Source: Streptomyces sp. Go-475 (GTDB lineage Bacteria; Actinomycetota; Actinomycetes; Streptomycetales; Streptomycetaceae). From it: a DNA stretch of 64,000 nt. How positions within the stretch are numbered: the first letter of the stretch is position 1; every line of letters starts with the position of its first letter. The stretch is taken from positions 7,731,501 through 7,795,500 of the forward strand of contig NZ_CP026121.1 of assembly GCF_003330845.1 (NCBI RefSeq). The letters are read 5' to 3'. The notes under the pieces were generated by a model. That model saw only the letters and a program-made list of their open reading frames with translations. It had not been told where the DNA came from and did not search any database. Position numbers and translations under genes: made by a program. Positions 55,018-63,627 of this stretch are shown piece after piece.

Positions 55018-56100
55018 TCACCAGCACATCACCGCCGTCTCGCCGGAACCCCAGGCGGAGTACAGGCGTACGCGGACGACGTAGCGGCGGCCCTTGACGA
55101 GCCGCACGCCGATCGTGGCGTTGTGCGGAGTTCCCCCGTCGTCCTGGCCGGCGAGGTAGCGGGGCTCCCCGTCCCGCTCCTCGAAGACCACGACGACGGC
55201 GTCGCCGTCGCCGAAGGTGCCCAGCGTGTACGTGCGGGTCTCCGGCGGATCGACGACGAAGTCGGCCTGCTCACCCGGGCCGAGCCCGAGCGGCACCGAG
55301 CGGAACGGCACCAGCGCGGGCGGCGCCGGGTCCGCCGGCGGATACCAGCGCAGCGCGAACTCCTTGTCGGCGGCGGACAGGGTGCCGGGCGGGTGCAGAC
55401 CCGCACGGTACCGCTCCGGCTCCAGGACCAGCCCCGACGAGAACGGGAACTCCATGATCGACTGCGGGTCCCAGACGGAGCCGTTCACCTCGTCCGGGTC
55501 GAGCTTGCGCAGGATGTTGTAGTGCGTCCGCTCCCGGCTCCAGTGGTTCGGCGGGCCCGCCAGCTCGGCGTACACGGCCTCGTCGTCCCAGTGGATGCCG
55601 GCGAACGGGCTCTGGTGCTCGTGCACCATGCCGAGCGCGTGCCCGATCTCGTGCAGGGCCGTCGCGCGCTCCCCGGGCGCGGTCAGGTCCCAGCCGAAGT
55701 TCATGGTGCGTTCGTGCAGGCCCGCCCGCAGCGCCTCCCGGCCCACCGCCGACCAGGAGCCGTCGCCGGGCTGGAACCCGATGCGCAGTTCGGCCTCCGA
55801 ACGGTCGTCGACCTCGACGAAGGCGATGCCGATGCCGAGGTCCTGCCACTCGCGGAAGCACCCGCGCACGACGTCCCGCTGCTCCTCGCTGCCGGCCCAG
55901 GACACCCGCCGCGTCATCCCCGTCCCCGGCACGGGGATGACGGACGCGTCGCTGTCACCGTCGAAGAACCAGTAGTGCAGGACGGTGCCGTTGACCCACG
56001 TCCGCCGCCCGCTCGCGAGCGCGCTCAGCCGCTCGGCCGCCAGCCCCGGTGCGAAGGCGGGCGCCGGCGCCTGTGCCAGCGAGCAGTAGCGTGCGGTCAT
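55018..56100 (-). CDS. astacin-like (M12A) zinc metalloprotease
   Basis: A 360-residue protein with the zinc motif HEIGHALGMVHEHQSP (150-165; ligands H150, H154, H160 and catalytic E151) and a Met-turn-like SIMEF, which fit astacins. No clear signal peptide is seen after MTARYCSLAQ, although the C-terminal 100 residues (YTLGTFGDGDAVVVVFEERDG, YVVRVRLYSAWGSGETAVMCW) resemble an extracellular beta-sandwich. The stop is at 55018. It is divergent from the LuxR-type regulator (start 56196). Substrate unknown; the family is clear. Confidence 0.85.
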   Translation of the reverse strand: MTARYCSLAQAPAPAFAPGLAAERLSALASGRRTWVNGTVLHYWFFDGDSDASVIPVPGTGMTRRVSWAGSEEQRDVVRGCFREWQDLGIGIAFVEVDDRSEAELRIGFQPGDGSWSAVGREALRAGLHERTMNFGWDLTAPGERATALHEIGHALGMVHEHQSPFAGIHWDDEAVYAELAGPPNHWSRERTHYNILRKLDPDEVNGSVWDPQSIMEFPFSSGLVLEPERYRAGLHPPGTLSAADKEFALRWYPPADPAPPALVPFRSVPLGLGPGEQADFVVDPPETRTYTLGTFGDGDAVVVVFEERDGEPRYLAGQDDGGTPHNATIGVRLVKGRRYVVRVRLYSAWGSGETAVMCW

Positions 56101-56154
56101 GGACCACAGCCTGCCGTGCGGCCCGTCCCGGCGCCTGAGTCGGGGGCTACTCAA

Positions 56155-56171
56155 GTCGCCCTGTATCAGAA
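56155..56171 (+). promoter_or_regulatory. shared CTGTATCA motif, copy A
   Basis: GTCGCCCTGTATCAGAA, 25 bases before the ATPase-LuxR gene. It matches the 17-bp GTGGCGCTGTATCAAAA at 60945-60961 at 14 positions, on the same strand, before the subtilase/sigma operon. Confidence 0.5.
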
Positions 56172-56195
56172 CTGAGCAGCCGCGCTCATGTCTGT

Positions 56196-57923
56196 GTGAC
56201 GACTTACGAACGGGACGCGACGACGCTGGAGCTGCCCTGGCCGTTCGCCGGGCGGGAGGACGAACTGGAGCTGGTCCGCCGGTCCCTGGCCGGCCCGCAC
56301 CGCGGCGTCGTGGTGACGGGCCCGGCGGGCTGCGGCAAGACCCGCCTCGTCACGGAGGCGATCCGCGGCACCGGCTGCGCCCGGGCGGCGGGCACGCCCG
56401 AGAGCCGCGGCCTGCCCTTCGCGGCGTTCGCGCATCTGCTGCCCGAGTCGGTCACCCTGCACCGCGCGGTCCGGCTGCTGTCCGGTGCCCGCACGCTGCT
56501 GGTCGACGACGCGCACCTGCTCGACGACGCCTCCGCCGCCCTGGTCCACCAGCTCGCCGTGCACGGCCGCACCCGTCTGCTCGTGGTCGCGACGGACGGC
56601 GCCCCGGCGCCCGGCGCGATCTCCCGGCTGTGGACCGGCGAACTCCTGCCGCGCCTCGCCCTGGAGCCGCTGCCCGACGAGGAGACCGCACAGCTCCTCA
56701 CGGCCGGCGCCGGGCCTCTCGATGCGCTCACCGCCCACCGGCTGCTGCGCCTGAGCCGGGGCGACCTGCGGCTGCTGCGCGACTTGCTGGACGCGGTGCG
56801 CGGACTGCTGACCCCCGTCCCGGACACGGAGGAGCGGGCCTGGCGGGGCCCGGTGCCGCTGACCCCGCCCGTGCGCGAGCGCACCGCCCACGTCCTCGGC
56901 CGCACCTGCCCGCTCGAACGCGAGACCCTCGACCGCCTCGCCTTCGCCGAGCCGCTGCCCTCGGATGTGGACGACCTGGACCTCGGGGCCCTCGAAGCCC
57001 TGGAGTCCGACGGCCTGGTCGAGGTCGACGACGTGGGCGGCGTCCGCCTCGCCCATCCCCTGTACGGCCCGGTGCTCAGGGCCGGTGCGGGCCGGTTGCG
57101 GGCGCGGCGGCTGGCCCGGACGCCGGACGCGTACGCCCGCGCCCTCGACGCCGAGGCGGCCGCGCTGTCCCGCCGGATCGACCAGGACGACGTCCGGGCG
57201 ACGCCCACACCGGTGGGGGAGTGGCTGGTCGCCGAGGGCGGGCCGCTGCCGGGCGGGTACGCGGCCGTACGTGCCCGGTTCGCCCGGCTGCGGGGGGAGG
57301 TGCGGGAAGCGGCCGCCTGGGCGAGGGAGGGGCTGCGGGGCGCCCCCGAGGACGCGTCGTGCCGGGAGGAACTCGCCCGCGCCTCAGCGACCGTGGACAG
57401 CCGGGACGACCTCGACCTGGAGGCCCTCACCGACCCCTACGACGCCGTCCGCCTCGGCGCCCCCGAGAAGGTCATCGACCGGCTGAGCGGCGTGTTCGCC
57501 CGGCACGCCGACGCGCTCACCCGGGCCGACGGCCCCGCCCTGGACGAGGTGGCCGGGGAACTGGAGCGACGGGGCTTCACGCTGTTCGCCGCCGAGGCAC
57601 ACGCCCAGGCCGTGGGCGCCCATCGCGATCCGCGCGCCGCCCGGTACGCCCGGACCCGGGCCGTCGCCCTGGCCCGGCGCTGCCAGGGCGCCCGCACACC
57701 CGCGCTGTCCGGGCTGGTCCTCGGCGAACTCACCGCCCGTCAGCGGCAGATCGTCACCCTCGCGGCTGCGGGCCTGAGCAACCGGCAGATCGCCGAACGC
57801 CTCACCCTGTCGATCCGCACCGTCGGCAACCACCTGTACAGCGCCTACGCCCGGCTCGGCGCGAACGACCGCGGCGCCCTGCCATGGCTCCTGACGGAAC
57901 CGCCCCAGGCCCAGCCGGCCTGA
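56196..57923 (+). CDS. AAA ATPase-LuxR regulator (LAL-like, short)
   Basis: A 575-residue protein. Residues 42-49 GPAGCGKT form Walker A, with a Walker B-like TLLVDDAHLLDDA; ATP-binding is thus likely. The C-terminal helix-turn-helix (LTARQRQIVTLAAAGLSNRQIAERLTLSIRTVGNHLYSAYARLG) is a LuxR/NarL domain. The arrangement equals that of large LAL regulators (about 900 residues) but is shorter, lacking most of the central repeat region. Start is GTG at 56196; GTG at 56194 is out of frame. Divergent from the metalloprotease and followed by a repeat-filled gap. It is a candidate controller of the protease genes nearby. Confidence 0.85.
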   Translation: MTTYERDATTLELPWPFAGREDELELVRRSLAGPHRGVVVTGPAGCGKTRLVTEAIRGTGCARAAGTPESRGLPFAAFAHLLPESVTLHRAVRLLSGARTLLVDDAHLLDDASAALVHQLAVHGRTRLLVVATDGAPAPGAISRLWTGELLPRLALEPLPDEETAQLLTAGAGPLDALTAHRLLRLSRGDLRLLRDLLDAVRGLLTPVPDTEERAWRGPVPLTPPVRERTAHVLGRTCPLERETLDRLAFAEPLPSDVDDLDLGALEALESDGLVEVDDVGGVRLAHPLYGPVLRAGAGRLRARRLARTPDAYARALDAEAAALSRRIDQDDVRATPTPVGEWLVAEGGPLPGGYAAVRARFARLRGEVREAAAWAREGLRGAPEDASCREELARASATVDSRDDLDLEALTDPYDAVRLGAPEKVIDRLSGVFARHADALTRADGPALDEVAGELERRGFTLFAAEAHAQAVGAHRDPRAARYARTRAVALARRCQGARTPALSGLVLGELTARQRQIVTLAAAGLSNRQIAERLTLSIRTVGNHLYSAYARLGANDRGALPWLLTEPPQAQPA

Positions 57924-57931
57924 GCCGCGAC

Positions 57932-58113
57932 GAACCACGGACCTCGGCGACGTCCCGGGCCGGCGGCCTCGGCTGTCCCGAACCGCCCACCTCGGCCGCG
58001 TCCGGAACCGCCCACCCCGGCCGCGCCCCGGACCACCGGCCTCGGCCGCGCCCGGACCGCCGGCCTCGGCCGCGCCCGGACCGCCGGCTTCGGCCGCGCC
58101 CCGGACCGGCGGC
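57932..58113. repeat. GC-rich minisatellite of about seven imperfect 24-27 bp units
   Basis: Units follow the pattern GACCGCCGGCCTCGGCCGCG with CCCG or CCCCG ends; two consecutive central units are nearly identical. It fills most of the 371-bp gap between the LuxR stop (57923) and the CHAT stop (58295). No gene was seen in this gap. Confidence 0.85.
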
Positions 58114-58294
58114 CTGACCCGCACAGGGGACGGGCCAGGCCGCCGCACAATCCGCCGAGGCTCGGGCCAGGAAACCCCGAGACCGAAGATGCCCCCGCCG
58201 GGTGGCCCCGGAGACCCGACGAGGCCCCGGCCGGGTGCCCCGTCCCACCCGCTGAGGCCCCGGCCGTGCATCCCCGAAACCCCGCCACGCTCGG

Positions 58295-60904
58295 TCAAGC
58301 CGCCCCGAACGCCGAGAACGCCCAGCCCGTGGCCTGGTGCAGTGCGTCGCCCGGCAGGGCGGCCCGGGCGTCGCGCAGAGCCTCCGCGAGGGACAGCCCG
58401 GCGCCCAGGCCCTTGTGCAGGGCCAGCATCAACGGCACCACCGCCGCGTCGTTGACGGGTGCGCTGCACGCCACCACCCCGGCCGTGCCCAGCGGCAGCA
58501 ACGCCGTGACCAGGCCGAGCAGTTCGTCGGCGCCGACGGACGCGAAGCGGGCGGTGTCGCAGCAGGACAGGATGATCCGGTACGGGCTGCGGGCGAGGCG
58601 CTCGAAGTCGTGCACGACGATCGGCCCGTCCGCCATCCGCAGCGAGGAGAACAGCGGACTGTCCGCGCGGAACGTACCGTGCGCGGCGATGTGCGCCAGC
58701 GCGGCCCCGTCGAGTTCCTCCAGCACCCGCGGCACGCGCGCCCCGCCCTCCTCCAGAACGGTCGCGCACGGGTACCGTCCGGCCAGCTCGGGCACTTCCG
58801 CACCGCCGCTCGCCAGGCCCGGGCCGCGCACCAGCACATGGCAGCCGTCCGGCGGCGGCGCGGTCTCCCGGGCCCGCAGCCAACTGCCCGCCGACGGCGA
58901 CACACTGAGCACCCGCTCCCGCAGCGACGGCAGCAGCGCCCACGGCACCCGGTGCAGCCGCCCCGGCGGCACGATCACCACCGGGCCGCCGCCCAGCTGC
59001 GCCGCCGCCGGCCCCAGCAGCAGCTCCTCCAGCCGCCGCCCCGCCGCCTCCACCACCGGCAGCCGCGCCTCGGCCCCGGGATGGGCCAGCCGCCGCAACC
59101 CGGCCTGGACGTGCTCGGCCTCGGTCTCCGCCTCGGCGAGCAGCCCGGCCTCGAACCGTCGCACCCGCCCCCGCCCGCACAGCAGCACCTGCACCCGCCC
59201 GTCGAGCACGGCGAGTTCCACCAGCAGCACCTCGTCGCCCAGCCGCTCCAGCAGCCGCCCGACGTCGAACCGGTCGCCGCCCCCGGGCGCCTTTCCCCGC
59301 ATGTGCAGGGTCCGGGAGCGGATCCCCCGCTCCAGCCGCCGCTGTTCCCGCTCCAGCGCCGGAACCGGCCGGCCCTCCCTCCGGGCGGCCTCCGCACGCG
59401 AGGCGATCTCCCGGAAGGCGGTCAGGCCGCTGAGCAGCTCCGGGTCGGCCGGCGGCCGGGTCGGCGGCGTGGACAGCACGGTGGCCCGCCAGCGCTCGCT
59501 CCACACCAGCAGCCGCCGCGGCCCGCCCGAGACCAGACTGGCCCGCTGCGCCAACGCCGCCAGTTCCGCGCCCTGTTCGGTGGCGCGGGCACGCAGCTCC
59601 GAGGCGCCCAGTGTCATCCGGTGGTCGTCGAGCACGTCCAGACCGCGCCGGCAGGCCTCCAGAACACCCCGGTTCGACCCGGCCGCCCACGCCCGCAGCG
59701 CCTGCGCCGACCAGCCCGTCAGCCGCGCCAGCGGCGGGCCGCTGTGCCGGCTGCGCGCGGCGACGGCCAGATGCCGCTCCGCGTCCGCCGTCCAGCCCAG
59801 GTCCAGCGCGATCCGGCCCGCCAGCAGCGACGCCTCCGGCGCGGCCGGCGCTCCGAAGGACGCCAGCTTCCCGGCCACCGCGGCGGCGTCCGCGACCAGC
59901 CGCCCCGAGCGGCGCCCGGCCGCGTGCCGCGCCTCGATCAGCACCAGCCGGGCATGCGCCTCCCACCACGTGCGCCGCTGCCCCGCGAACAGCCGTACCG
60001 CGAGGGCGGCACGGGCGATCGCCGTGTGCGGGTCCCCGGCCGGCCGGGCGGCCCGCGCGGCGGCCAGCAGCAACTCGGCCTTGCGGGTGGACTGCCCGCC
60101 GATCCCGTCCAGCTTCCTGATCGCCGCGTCCGCCTCGGCCAGCGCCTCGGGCGCCAGCCCGGCCGCCATCAGCACCTCGCAGCGCCGGATGTTCAGCATG
60201 AACGTCGGCGTGCCCAGCCGGGCGTACCGCTCCTCGGCCTCGTCCAGCAGCCGCAGCGCCGCGGGCACGTCCCCGGACCGGAACGCGGCCAGCCCCCGGC
60301 TCTCCACCGCGTCCGCCTTGTCGTGCTCCTGGCCGGTGGTGTCCCACAGCGCCTCGGCCGCGGTGAAGTCCGCCTCCGCCCGCTCCACCGCACCCAGCGC
60401 CAGGTGCACGGTGGCCCGCAGGGTCAGCGCCCGCGCCGTCCAGATCACGTCGTCCGCCTGCCGCAGCACCGGCACCGCGCGCCGCACGTCCTCCAGCGCC
60501 TCGCGATGACGCCCGAGCACCCACCACACGTACGCCCGCCGGTACAGCACCCGCGCCCGCGTGTGCCCGGCGCCCCGCGCGACCCCCCGCTCGAACGCCG
60601 CCAGCCCCTCCCGGGTGCGGCCCGCGTGCACCAGCGCCACCCCCAGCGTGGCCAGTACGTCCGCCTCCCGGTCAGCCGAGTCCGCGCGCGCCGCGCACTG
60701 GCGGGCCCGCCGCAGATGGCTCAGCGCGAGCCGCAGATCGCCGAAGTCCCGCTGCCAGATGCCGATCACCTGATGCGCGACGGAGGCGTCCAGCGGGGAG
60801 GGACCGGCGTCGAGCAGCGCCCGGGCCCTCGCGAGAGCCTCGCCCGGGTCGGCGAACACCATCGGCAGCAGTGATTCCGTAACCGGCTCGCTTCCCGCTG
60901 TCAC
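58295..60904 (-). CDS. TPR-CHAT (caspase-like) protease
   Basis: An 869-residue protein. The N-terminal two thirds is built of helical TPR-like repeats (ALARARALLDAGPS, GDLRLALSHLRRARQCAARA, GRHREALEDVRRAVPVLRQ, GDVPAALRLLDEAEERYARLG). The C-terminal CHAT domain (about 560-869) has the catalytic pair: H742 in HIAAHGTF and C782 in IILSCCDTAR, followed by GLVTALLPLGTAGVVACSAPVNDAA. Both catalytic residues are intact, so protease activity is likely. GTG 60904 is chosen; its ribosome site is poor, and GTG at 60925 or 60940 is possible. Divergent from the subtilase/sigma operon. CHAT-TPR proteins include separase-like and Csx29 proteases. Confidence 0.88.
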   Translation of the reverse strand: MTAGSEPVTESLLPMVFADPGEALARARALLDAGPSPLDASVAHQVIGIWQRDFGDLRLALSHLRRARQCAARADSADREADVLATLGVALVHAGRTREGLAAFERGVARGAGHTRARVLYRRAYVWWVLGRHREALEDVRRAVPVLRQADDVIWTARALTLRATVHLALGAVERAEADFTAAEALWDTTGQEHDKADAVESRGLAAFRSGDVPAALRLLDEAEERYARLGTPTFMLNIRRCEVLMAAGLAPEALAEADAAIRKLDGIGGQSTRKAELLLAAARAARPAGDPHTAIARAALAVRLFAGQRRTWWEAHARLVLIEARHAAGRRSGRLVADAAAVAGKLASFGAPAAPEASLLAGRIALDLGWTADAERHLAVAARSRHSGPPLARLTGWSAQALRAWAAGSNRGVLEACRRGLDVLDDHRMTLGASELRARATEQGAELAALAQRASLVSGGPRRLLVWSERWRATVLSTPPTRPPADPELLSGLTAFREIASRAEAARREGRPVPALEREQRRLERGIRSRTLHMRGKAPGGGDRFDVGRLLERLGDEVLLVELAVLDGRVQVLLCGRGRVRRFEAGLLAEAETEAEHVQAGLRRLAHPGAEARLPVVEAAGRRLEELLLGPAAAQLGGGPVVIVPPGRLHRVPWALLPSLRERVLSVSPSAGSWLRARETAPPPDGCHVLVRGPGLASGGAEVPELAGRYPCATVLEEGGARVPRVLEELDGAALAHIAAHGTFRADSPLFSSLRMADGPIVVHDFERLARSPYRIILSCCDTARFASVGADELLGLVTALLPLGTAGVVACSAPVNDAAVVPLMLALHKGLGAGLSLAEALRDARAALPGDALHQATGWAFSAFGAA

Positions 60905-60944
60905 TCCTCGGATGGTAGTGGCCACCGAACCGCACCACACAGGG

Positions 60945-60961
60945 GTGGCGCTGTATCAAAA
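60945..60961 (+). promoter_or_regulatory. shared CTGTATCA motif, copy B
   Basis: GTGGCGCTGTATCAAAA, in the divergent region between the CHAT gene (start 60904) and the subtilase (start 61047). It shares GTSGCSCTGTATCARAA with copy A at 56155-56171. Confidence 0.5.
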
Positions 60962-61046
60962 GACCGCAGCGTGACTCTTGTCGGAGAGACTCGACGACCG
61001 CTCCGCGGCACCGGCCGACGCCGTCGCCCCACCGGGAGGACCCGCC

Positions 61047-62477
61047 ATGGCACCTCAGCGATTCCACGAGCAGTTCGACCAGATCCAGCGCTCGATGCCC
61101 GACGTGCCCCTCGCGATGGGCCCGGACGACTCGGCCGAGTTCATGTACGAGAAGGGCGTCGTCCTCGTCCGCGACGGCGAGGAGGCCCGCATCGTGGAGG
61201 ACACGGTACGGGCGCACTTCACGGCGGCACCCGACCTCGACCAGGAGCAGGTCCGCCGGGCCGGCCCGAGCACCAACCGCACCGGGATCACCCGGATCCG
61301 GGTCGGCGACCCCGGCGAGGGCGGCCGCGACGCCGACCGCGCCGTCGCGCACGCCCTGCGCTCCGTACGGGAGCAGGAGGCCCGGGCGGGACACCGGATG
61401 GTCGCCCGCAACCACGTGGTGCACATCGCGGTCAACGCCTGCCCCGGCGACGAACCCGTCCCCGCCCCGCTCGGCGAGCCGCCCAACCCGGCCGCCGCCG
61501 ACACGCCCCACGACCCCGGCACCGCCGTCGGCGTCCTCGTCGTCGACACCGGCCTCACACACGACTACCGCTCCTGCGGCCTGCTGGCCCACACCGAGGG
61601 CGACGCGCAGGTCCAGGAGTGCGACGAGGAGGGCATCCTCCAGCAGTACGTCGGGCACGGCACGTTCATCGCCGGGCTCGTCGCCGCCGTCGCGCCCAAC
61701 ACCGACATCACCGTCCGTGGCACCCTGAACGACGCGGGCGCCGTCCTGGAGTCCGAGTTCGGCGAGAAGCTCTTCGAGGCCGTCGACGCCGGCGGCTGGC
61801 CCGACGTCCTCAGCCTCTCCGCCGGCACCTCCAACGGCCGCGCCGACGGACTGCTCGGCGTCGAGAACTTCATGCGGGAACTGCGCGAGCGGCGCACCCT
61901 GCTCGTCGCCGCCGCCGGCAACAACGGCAGCGCCACGCCCTTCTGGCCCGCCGCCTACGCCGACCTGCCCGGCTGGGAGGACTCCGTGCTCTCCGTCGGC
62001 GCCCTGCGCAGCGACGGCGAGTTCGGCGCCTGCTTCACCAACCACGGCCCCTGGGTGAAGGTCTACGCCCCCGGCGAGCGCCTCACCGGCGCCCTCACCG
62101 GCTTCGACACACCCGTCCCGTACGTGTACCAGCACTCCACGTACGACGCCTGCCGCTACGGCTTCTCCTACGGCTGCACCTGCCGCCACCCCCGCCACAC
62201 CGGTGTGCTGAGCGACGAGAACGCCTCCGCCAAGCCGGACCAGGTGATGTTCGAGGGCTACGCGCAGTGGAGCGGCACCTCCTTCGCCACCCCCGTGACC
62301 GCGGGCATGGTCGCCGCCCACATGACGGCGCACAAGGAGACCGACCCGCGCGCGGCCCGGCGTCACCTGCTCGCGGCGCACGCGGACTTCGCCGAAGTGC
62401 GCGGGGCGCACGTCCCCGCGCTGCGTCCTCCCACGTGGCGCCCGGTCCCGGTCATGCGCCTCACCCCGGGCCTGTGA
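61047..62477 (+). CDS. subtilase-family (S8) serine protease, apparently cytoplasmic
   Basis: A 476-residue S8 protease with an intact catalytic triad: D167 in VLVVDTG, H204 in GHGTFIAGL and S412 in GTSFATPV, with the oxyanion N292 in AAAGNNGS. There is no signal peptide, so it probably acts inside the cell. A cysteine-rich insert (CRYGFSYGCTC) near 370-380 may bind a metal. The ATG has GGGAGGA six bases before it; a TTG at 60978 lies in frame but is less likely. It is divergent from the TPR-CHAT gene and is followed by the sigma factor gene 62 bases on. Confidence 0.88.
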   Translation: MAPQRFHEQFDQIQRSMPDVPLAMGPDDSAEFMYEKGVVLVRDGEEARIVEDTVRAHFTAAPDLDQEQVRRAGPSTNRTGITRIRVGDPGEGGRDADRAVAHALRSVREQEARAGHRMVARNHVVHIAVNACPGDEPVPAPLGEPPNPAAADTPHDPGTAVGVLVVDTGLTHDYRSCGLLAHTEGDAQVQECDEEGILQQYVGHGTFIAGLVAAVAPNTDITVRGTLNDAGAVLESEFGEKLFEAVDAGGWPDVLSLSAGTSNGRADGLLGVENFMRELRERRTLLVAAAGNNGSATPFWPAAYADLPGWEDSVLSVGALRSDGEFGACFTNHGPWVKVYAPGERLTGALTGFDTPVPYVYQHSTYDACRYGFSYGCTCRHPRHTGVLSDENASAKPDQVMFEGYAQWSGTSFATPVTAGMVAAHMTAHKETDPRAARRHLLAAHADFAEVRGAHVPALRPPTWRPVPVMRLTPGL

Positions 62478-62539
62478 CGGCCGAAGCCGCCCCCTCCACG
62501 GCGTACGATGACGTGCCGTACTCGAGGGGTGGGGCTGCC

Positions 62540-63115
62540 GTGGACCGTACTGATGCCGGCTCGCTCGTCCAGGCCGCGGCCGACGGCGACGCGGCGGCCT
62601 GGAAGGCGCTCGTGGAAGGGCTGAGCCCCCTGGTGTGGTCCGTGGTGCGGGCCCACCGGCTCTCCGACGCCGACGCGCACGAGGTGTACCAGACCGCCTG
62701 GTTCCGCTTCGCCCAGTACCTCGGGCGGATCCGGGAACCCGACAAGGCGGGCGCGTGGCTGGCGAGCACCGCGCGCCACGAATGCCTGAAGGTGATCCGC
62801 AGCTCCAGGCGGCTGACCCTGACGGACGATCCGCGGCTCCTGGACCGGGTCAGCGAGGACGGTACGCCGGAGCAGTCGCTGCTCGACTCCGAGGAGGCGG
62901 CCGCCCAGAGCGAACGCGTACGGCGGCTGTGGCAGGAGTTCGAGGAACTGGGCGAGCGGTGCAGGCAGTTGCTGCGCGTTCTCATGACCACGCCACCGCC
63001 CAGCTACCAGGACGTGTCCGCCGCGCTCGGGATCGCGGTGGGCAGCATCGGGCCGCTGCGCCAGCGCTGTCTGCGGCGCCTGCGGGCCCGGCTCGAGGCA
63101 CGGGGGGCGATGTGA
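62540..63115 (+). CDS. ECF-type RNA polymerase sigma factor
   Basis: A 191-residue sigma factor of two-domain (sigma-2/sigma-4) build. Region 2: LVQAAADGDAAAWKALVEGLSPLVWSVVRAHRLSDADAHEVYQTAWFRFAQYLGRIREPDKAGAWLASTARHECLKVIRSSRR. Region 4: RVRRLWQEFEELGERCRQLLRVLMTTPPPSYQDVSAALGIAVGSIGPLRQRCLRRLRARLEA. The GTG at 62540 is chosen with GAGGGG upstream; GTG 62474 is also in frame and would overlap the subtilase stop. The next gene overlaps its end by four bases (GTGA), so the two are translationally coupled, as often seen for sigma/anti-sigma pairs. Confidence 0.9.
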   Translation: MDRTDAGSLVQAAADGDAAAWKALVEGLSPLVWSVVRAHRLSDADAHEVYQTAWFRFAQYLGRIREPDKAGAWLASTARHECLKVIRSSRRLTLTDDPRLLDRVSEDGTPEQSLLDSEEAAAQSERVRRLWQEFEELGERCRQLLRVLMTTPPPSYQDVSAALGIAVGSIGPLRQRCLRRLRARLEARGAM

Positions 63116-63627
63116 ACGGCATGCACGACATGGACGACGTGAACGACAGGGACGACGACGAGGTCTTCGGCGAAGAGGAGCGGGGCGACGACGAGTTCGA
63201 CGCCGGGCTGCTGGAGGAGGAGCTCCGGCAGGCCGCCGCGGTCCTGGACCCCGTGCCGCCGGAGCTGCAGCAGATCGCCGTGGACGCGTACGCGCTGCAC
63301 GACCTCGACGCCCGCGTCGCCGAGCTGACCTTCGACTCGCTGGTCGACTCCCTCCCGGTCCGGGGCGCCACCGACACGCCCCGGATGCTGACGTTCCGGG
63401 CGGGCGAGGTGACCGTCGACGTCGAGGTGACGGAGGACGGGCTGATGGGGCAGGTGCTGCCGCCGCAGCCGGCCCGCATCGAGGTCCTGTGCGGACCCCG
63501 GCCCGGCTCCGCCCTGACCGCCGACGACCTGGGCCGCTTCACCGCCGACGTGCCGCCCTCCGGCCCGTTCGCCCTGCGGTTGCGCACGGGCGGGGACGTG
63601 GTGGTGACGGAGTGGCTGCGGGCCTAG
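63112..63627 (+). CDS. acidic protein coupled to the sigma factor, unknown function
   Basis: A 171-residue protein with a strongly acidic N-terminus (MDDVNDRDDDEVFGEEERGDDEFD), then a folded-looking region with ELRQAAAVLDPVPPELQQIAVDAYALHDLDARVAELTFDSLVDSL and a beta-rich C-terminus (MLTFRAGEVTVDVEVTEDGLMGQVLP, PFALRLRTGGDVVVTEW). No transmembrane helix and no zinc HxxxCxxC motif is seen, so it is not a classical ZAS anti-sigma factor. Its GTG start overlaps the sigma stop. It may bind the sigma factor; this is inference from coupling. No family is recognised with confidence. Confidence 0.75.
   Translation: MNGMHDMDDVNDRDDDEVFGEEERGDDEFDAGLLEEELRQAAAVLDPVPPELQQIAVDAYALHDLDARVAELTFDSLVDSLPVRGATDTPRMLTFRAGEVTVDVEVTEDGLMGQVLPPQPARIEVLCGPRPGSALTADDLGRFTADVPPSGPFALRLRTGGDVVVTEWLRA

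Follow-up and report, generated by a model that had tools for sequence, protein, structure and literature searches.

A possible CRISPR-free protease switch for an ECF sigma factor beside an antibiotic repressor gene in Streptomyces

Streptomyces sp. Go-475 encodes a TPR-CHAT protease, a cytoplasmic subtilase, an ECF sigma factor and an acidic protein side by side within a 64,000-nucleotide stretch of contig NZ_CP026121.1 (positions 7,731,501 to 7,795,500; the whole stretch is called the window here, and coordinates refer to it). The four proteins are abbreviated CHAT, S8, SIG and ACID. Comparison of genomes reveals that their genes are associated far beyond chance, and the four almost certainly constitute one unit. 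We propose a model in which CHAT cuts ACID at residue R84 and frees SIG, and SIG drives its own operon and the nearby regulatory gene absR2; the chances that this model holds as a whole appear evenly balanced. The unit has the following parts.

58295..60940 (start may be 60904), minus strand: TPR-CHAT protease CHAT; PF12770 at 86 bits, plus TPR; dyad H754/C794
60952..60977, plus strand: predicted SIG-dependent (autoregulatory) promoter of the S8-SIG-ACID operon, TGTATCA-N16-CTC
61047..62477, plus strand: cytoplasmic subtilase S8; ATG at 61047; PF00082 at 74 bits; D167/H204/N292/S412
62474..63115 (inner start 62540 also possible), plus strand: ECF sigma factor SIG; TIGR02937 at 71 bits over residues 20-185
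63112..63627, plus strand: acidic protein ACID; acidic tail, helices 31-45 and 50-78, linker, beta-sandwich from residue 91
63361..63363, plus strand: codon of ACID R84, the candidate cleavage site (P1) in the linker

Linkage and co-occurrence of the four genes

The CHAT gene is divergent from an S8-SIG-ACID operon. A preliminary description of the window had given this layout, and the protein features read there from the letters alone were likewise borne out. The catalytic pair of CHAT is intact; H742/C782 of that description, counted from a start 12 codons later, equals H754/C794 here. S8 has the intact triad D167/H204/S412 and a PF00082 match, and no hydrophobic stretch at its N-terminus, in agreement with the claimed lack of a signal peptide. 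SIG is of the ECF type by TIGR02937 and by a profile match to E. coli sigma-E (1or7) over residues 6-174; Pfam matches region 2 only, region 4 not being among its matches, and SIG appears to carry both ECF regions 2 and 4 along its length. ACID, described as a GTGA-coupled acidic protein without the usual zinc anti-sigma motif, has 38 Asp/Glu against 13 Lys/Arg, two His and a single Cys, and HxxxCxxC is absent from it.

The operon looks translationally coupled. The GTG start of ACID overlaps the SIG stop, and SIG probably starts at GTG 62474, overlapping the S8 stop, rather than at 62540, because 69 of the 73 Streptomyces loci in which both the SIG start and the S8 stop could be placed (79 examined) have an in-frame start codon that overlaps that stop. 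A start at 62474 gives SIG a 22-codon N-terminal extension (62474-62539) that begins inside the S8 stop codon. Most SIG homologues among the 120 listed database matches are 212 amino acids long.

The conserved neighbourhood on which the preliminary description had made its proposal depend was found. Streptomyces loci were picked by ACID match (best 80 of 87). All 80 have SIG, 78 have S8 and 76 have CHAT, although contig ends clip some loci; the four genes stand together in 76 of the 80. Three of the four loci that lack CHAT stop at a contig edge (L003, L011 and L078), and the fourth, L007, is rearranged. In L007 (S. lomondensis) the S8 match begins at residue 288 and no CHAT lies within 20 kb; this locus is rearranged or misassembled.

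A class-wide survey of 394 genomes, with thresholds of E<=1e-4 for the ACID profile (A5) and E<=1e-40 for the module-type CHAT profile (A2), found ACID in 130 genomes and CHAT in 127. Both occur in 126, about a third of the sample, ACID alone in four, CHAT alone in one (G084) and neither in 263. Among the ACID-only genomes, G253 and G370 are 75% and 63% complete, respectively, and a sub-threshold CHAT (140 bits) adjoins ACID in G346; the remaining one, G086, is taken up below. Streptomyces genomes comprise 14 with CHAT and ACID, none with one alone and at least 20 with neither, a pattern that shows joint gain or loss of the two genes within the genus. The surveyed genomes are kin and the co-occurrence events are not independent; a Fisher test of CHAT against ACID gave a p of 1e-41 with kinship ignored and with a narrower ACID model (A1, 72 genomes).

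Outside Streptomyces, 120 neighbourhoods around ACID matches were compared, several of them clipped by contig ends (the distant loci). In 118 of the 120, SIG precedes ACID and shares its strand, and the matched parts are no more than 356 bases apart. Linked CHAT occurs in 93 (weakly matched in two, L162 and L167) and linked S8 in 73, and 12 arrangement patterns occur if incomplete ones are counted. Nineteen genomes have a locus with SIG and ACID only; 18 of these have CHAT elsewhere and 18 have a module-type S8, the exception being G253. The split S8-CHAT loci compared number 20, from those 18 genomes together with G019 and G028, and S8 is divergent from CHAT in every one (20/20; L284 is clipped by a contig end). 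From these counts, SIG-ACID and CHAT-S8 are two half-units that stay together even when unlinked.

The acidic protein and the two proteases

ACID looks like a partner of SIG because it follows SIG so constantly in the distant loci, and it is likely that ACID holds SIG. Nothing in Pfam, NCBIfam or PADLOC matches ACID up to E = 1, and the ACID profile gave one chance-level match among Protein Data Bank chains. Some relatives are named 'carboxypeptidase regulatory-like' in databases, and PF13620, which we take to be the carboxypeptidase regulatory-like domain, is found on 10 of the 120 listed distant relatives. An AlphaFold2 model built from 52 sequences (mean predicted local distance difference test score, pLDDT, 79.6; predicted template modelling score, pTM, 0.49) has a disordered acidic tail, the two helices, a linker and the beta-sandwich, with linker residues 79-84 under pLDDT 50.

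R84 lies in this linker. It is invariant across the 119 distant loci that can be aligned there, and 240 of 240 database proteins have it as well (120 are close Streptomyces relatives). The sole absence is in L262, which is gapped there; its genome, G370, is 63% complete and gave no CHAT match. The lowest entropy in ACID is shared by R84 and G141, the latter present in 120/120 distant loci; G141 lies within the fold, and R84 within a linker whose other positions are variable. The linker contains exactly one Arg and no Lys in 288 of 361 aligned sequences, and no Arg in one. The stretch before R84 ranges from 5 to 42 residues, and the flanks are mostly V/L/T and S/G/A. A lone invariant Arg in such a linker resembles a cleavage site, although this is not proof. 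Arg at P1 is common in clan CD, including separase, metacaspase, paracaspase, clostripain and gingipain R (PMC4357240, in the part available). We slightly favour a cut at R84 over other explanations of its conservation.

The catalytic residues of both proteases are conserved. Among the first 60 distant loci (L133-L192), and not counting gaps, CHAT retains its His in 36/36 and its Cys in 35/35 (39 rows), and the Asp, His, Asn and Ser of S8 are each present in 35/35. CHAT thus has the conserved catalytic His and Cys of a clan CD protease, H754 and C794. Across all 146 S8 rows, Streptomyces included, Asp is replaced once by R, His once by Q and Ser twice by A, in addition to gaps; some of these departures are open reading frames picked in the wrong frame or cut.

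Which protease would act on ACID is suggested by loci that appear to do without S8. In 21 genomes with CHAT and ACID the top S8 match reaches 73 bits, in the catalytic domain, compared with at least 148 bits for linked S8; SIG was seen in the 19 of these whose loci were fetched. S8 thus seems accessory or dispensable, although some of these genomes may have a diverged, unlinked S8, and CHAT is therefore the better protease candidate. All 19 loci that have no linked S8 retain R84, and this also indicates CHAT as the cutter. The preliminary description had named CHAT or the subtilase without choosing; the choice can now be narrowed towards CHAT, which we give an even chance of being the enzyme that cuts ACID. 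In five loci of one genus (L268, L270, L271, L272 and L279), two tandem module-type subtilases lie beside CHAT.

The AlphaFold2 model of CHAT (31 Streptomyces sequences; pLDDT 71.3, pTM 0.70) has a well-modelled TPR helical solenoid at about residues 12-430 of the 869-residue form. A Foldseek search with this model placed human separase at ranks 1-8 (best E 8.3e-9, template modelling score about 0.37, root-mean-square deviation >11 Å), and the 50 rows listed by VIA-align cover the TPR part only (Rap, LGN and MalT solenoids). The likeness to separase may be regarded as a lead. In sequence, the CHAT end alone matches solved CHAT chains (8d9f and others, presumably the Craspase protease; E 4.7e-5).

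A shared candidate promoter motif and absR2

The motif TGTATCA-N16-CTC is found between CHAT and S8 in 73 of 75 Streptomyces sequences, and a longer form, TGTATCAA-N14-16-CTCT, has a single occurrence in the 8.57 Mb genome. A second copy lies at absR2, on the other side of CHAT.

55018..56100, minus strand: absR1 (AbsR1 family; S. coelicolor SCO6992); NCBIfam NF050131 at 737.9 bits (cut-off 650); ATG at 56100; HEIGH motif
56125..56141, no strand assigned: likeness, matched by eye, to the published footprint (-54 to -37) of SCO6993 (AbsR2) on its own promoter (PMC9628970, available part)
56162..56187, plus strand: predicted SIG-dependent promoter of absR2, TGTATCA-N16-CTC; motif upstream of absR2 in 46/48 Streptomyces loci
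56196..57923, plus strand: absR2, LAL/LuxR-type regulator (S. coelicolor SCO6993); NCBIfam NF050132 at 986 bits (cut-off 850)

absR1 is divergent from absR2 and is not part of the four-gene set. By synteny, the six genes appear to be the counterparts of S. coelicolor SCO6992-SCO6997, the assignment of CHAT to SCO6994 and of ACID to SCO6997 following from gene order. In published papers, as far as their text was available, SCO6995 is an intracellular serine protease and SCO6996 a sigma factor. The gap between absR2 and CHAT (57929-58248) contains imperfect tandem-like repeats of 24-48 bases.

A scan of the 80 Streptomyces loci (1.47 Mb, both strands, spacer 15-17) gave 127 motif matches: 74 precede S8, 50 precede absR2 and three remain. 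A script assigned the 124; the other three (L018, L030 and L075) were assigned by eye to S8 or absR2 sites. Four scrambled motifs gave 12, 0, 0 and 0 matches in the same loci. The absR2 copy lies in the absR1-absR2 gap and ends eight bases before the absR2 start codon, and the message would be nearly leaderless. absR2 itself (E<=1e-60) is present in 12 of 14 Streptomyces genomes that bear the module, versus none of the 20 listed genomes that do not. The distant loci contain 58 matches, and 41 of these, in 41 of the 120 loci, lie no more than 850 bp ahead of a module gene, where about five would be expected by area. The motif also precedes LAL-type regulators that adjoin the module in three loci outside Streptomyces (L134, L135 and L137); those of L134 and L137 have AAA_16 and LuxR domains, and that of L137 scores 377 bits against the AbsR2 model (cut-off 850). 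Since module and motif share their distribution, SIG very probably reads TGTATCA-N16-CTC and drives absR2.

Other matches were noted. Beyond the two module sites, exact matches in the genome lie upstream of a nitronate monooxygenase gene and inside an acyltransferase gene, and these two are not separable from chance. The nitronate monooxygenase gene (L266:1924-3033; G000:C1 ~319923-321032), with the match about 25 bases upstream, is perhaps a third target, or a chance find. An unnamed protein of 126-144 amino acids is encoded beside SIG in L182 (7012-7437), L184 (9293-9673) and L185 (7000-7434), with the motif 36-89 bp upstream, and is a possible further target; the protein of L184 matches nothing in Pfam or NCBIfam. 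In L268-L279 the CHAT-S8 intergenic region has a strongly conserved block around TGATGCTAGACATGTAG and is missing the SIG-type motif, which a different promoter type may have replaced there.

A link to absR2 would connect the unit with antibiotic production. According to the available part of PMC9628970, deletion of SCO6993 raises actinorhodin 9-fold, and the SCO6993 protein binds its own promoter as well as those of actII-ORF4 and redD. SCO6995, the counterpart of S8 by synteny, is AdpA-dependent and, when overexpressed, inhibited antibiotic production through a route left unexplained, with the data not shown in that paper (PMC2936110, available part). A route from S8 or CHAT through SIG to AbsR2 would account for the latter result.

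Proposed mechanism and alternatives

From the linkage, the co-occurrence, the intact catalytic residues, the invariance of R84 and the conservation and placement of the motif, we infer that the gene set may be a cytoplasmic signalling switch. ACID would hold SIG, probably through its N-terminal helical part, and the TPR solenoid of CHAT would sense a signal. CHAT would then cut ACID after R84, so that helices and beta-sandwich part and SIG is released. S8 may help by digesting the fragments further, or may itself be a CHAT substrate, and lineages apparently without S8 would work without it. Free SIG would transcribe from TGTATCA-N16-CTC and raise expression of its own operon; in Streptomyces it would also raise absR2, whose product represses antibiotic regulators.

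Several findings weigh against this scheme. The catalytic half of CHAT is poorly modelled (residues 731-834 under pLDDT 50), and the pTM of the ACID model is low. R84 could instead be a contact residue or binding hot-spot, which would look alike. No natural SIG-ACID fusion was found in a six-frame scan, where the only candidate, in L062, reads across assembly N's; a search with the L062 stretch returned sigma-only proteins, and no fusion, in the best 120 of 324 matches. G086, 96% complete, is a real exception: it has SIG and an ACID with R84, and no CHAT at E<=1e-40. Extra copies of SCO6993 left pigment unaffected (PMC9705864, available part), which fits a simple form of the scheme poorly. The strict motif is absent from the 850 bp upstream of module genes in 79 of the 120 distant loci, and it precedes S8 in just one of the 20 split S8-CHAT loci, so that the unlinked halves share no visible motif. 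With one mismatch allowed, the genome yields 78 matches versus 138 for a reversed control, with no enrichment. Finally, the mechanism favoured in a review of related sigma factors, discussed below, is different.

The most serious alternative, although an unlikely one, is a cascade in which S8, once cut and thereby activated by CHAT, goes on to cut ACID. The SAVED-CHAT/PCaspase cascade provides a comparison. The adjacent, divergent placement of S8 and CHAT in all 20 split loci and the shared operon of S8 and SIG in Streptomyces would suit such an order of events; the 21 genomes with CHAT and ACID but a top S8 match of 73 bits would not, and R84 is kept in all 19 of their loci that were fetched.

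A second alternative comes from the ECF54 sigma factors, a group reportedly defined in Casas-Pastor 2021 and Huang 2015. A review describes this group, in the part available, as mainly actinobacterial, with carboxypeptidase, subtilase and CHAT neighbours, and proposes proteolytic control without an anti-sigma factor (PMC8999054). Peptidases would degrade SIG itself and keep the system off, much as ClpXP degrades AntA in the precedent cited there, and ACID, judging from the database names of its relatives, is probably the item counted as carboxypeptidase. However, ACID has no peptidase family match and is predicted to consist of helices and a beta-sandwich, its place after SIG looks like that of a partner, and the invariant site sits in ACID (an equivalent site in SIG was not sought). 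Degradation of SIG itself seems rather improbable in this light.

Equally improbable is that ACID serves as a co-activator or scaffold, with R84 as an interaction residue and proteolysis aimed elsewhere. R84 is near the start of the folded domain, and G086 retains it without a detected CHAT, both of which speak for this reading; a lone invariant Arg in a low-confidence linker of variable length is nevertheless more motif-like than fold-like. The preliminary description had also entertained a defence role, but an anti-phage defence module akin to the CRISPR-associated Craspase is very hard to sustain: TPR-CHAT with a sigma factor does recall Csx29/Csx30/CASP-sigma, and PADLOC matches S8 with its subtilase model (E 3.9e-11) and the CHAT of three of four relatives with BovA (E 1e-4 to 3e-3), but these matches are generic or weak and none is to the CHAT of the window itself, no CRISPR-like array was found at 44-64 kb of the window, and the predicted output is an antibiotic repressor.

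Relation to known systems

Release of SIG through cutting of ACID by CHAT would explain the control of a little-studied sigma factor group and identify its partner protein, and would supply both substrate and cut site for a bacterial CHAT protease that is not part of CRISPR. It would also put AbsR2/SCO6993, an antibiotic repressor, under the control of a protease switch in a model Streptomyces, and removal of the switch could release silenced antibiotics.

The gene set, whose protein partner the preliminary description called unassigned, is already in print as the ECF54 context; the likeness lies in the neighbour genes, an ECF sigma factor with CHAT, subtilase and 'carboxypeptidase'. Beyond the available part of that review, ACID as a near-constant SIG partner, the R84 site, the dispensability of S8, the promoter motif and absR2 as a target are apparently new. 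The SCO6994-SCO6997 tags occur in just two papers of the open-access literature, and neither, in the parts available, proposes the present model; subscription papers were outside the search.

Like separase, CHAT would cut after Arg at P1, and separase heads its Foldseek ranking; the low template modelling score, the large deviation and the confinement of alignments to the TPR part set the two apart. In CalpL/CalpT/CalpS, a CRISPR-linked SAVED-Lon system, a protease cuts an anti-sigma factor and frees a sigma factor, so the release logic is alike and the proteins are different. The type III-E system also combines TPR-CHAT, an ECF sigma factor and an inhibitor, the latter being cut in a flexible loop (PMC10028731, available part). 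Csx30 is cut at 427-429 with no essential residue according to the same text, whereas ACID has a single invariant Arg, and no array lies nearby here. The preliminary suggestion that protease and sigma factor are joined without CRISPR holds for the single unit and the lack of a nearby array, while the cut that would free SIG is predicted from R84. The unit may, somewhat short of an even chance, be a CRISPR-free chromosomal counterpart of Csx29-Csx30-sigma, in which a separase-like, Arg-specific TPR-CHAT protease would cut a two-domain anti-sigma factor at R84 and the freed SIG would drive itself and, in Streptomyces, absR2.

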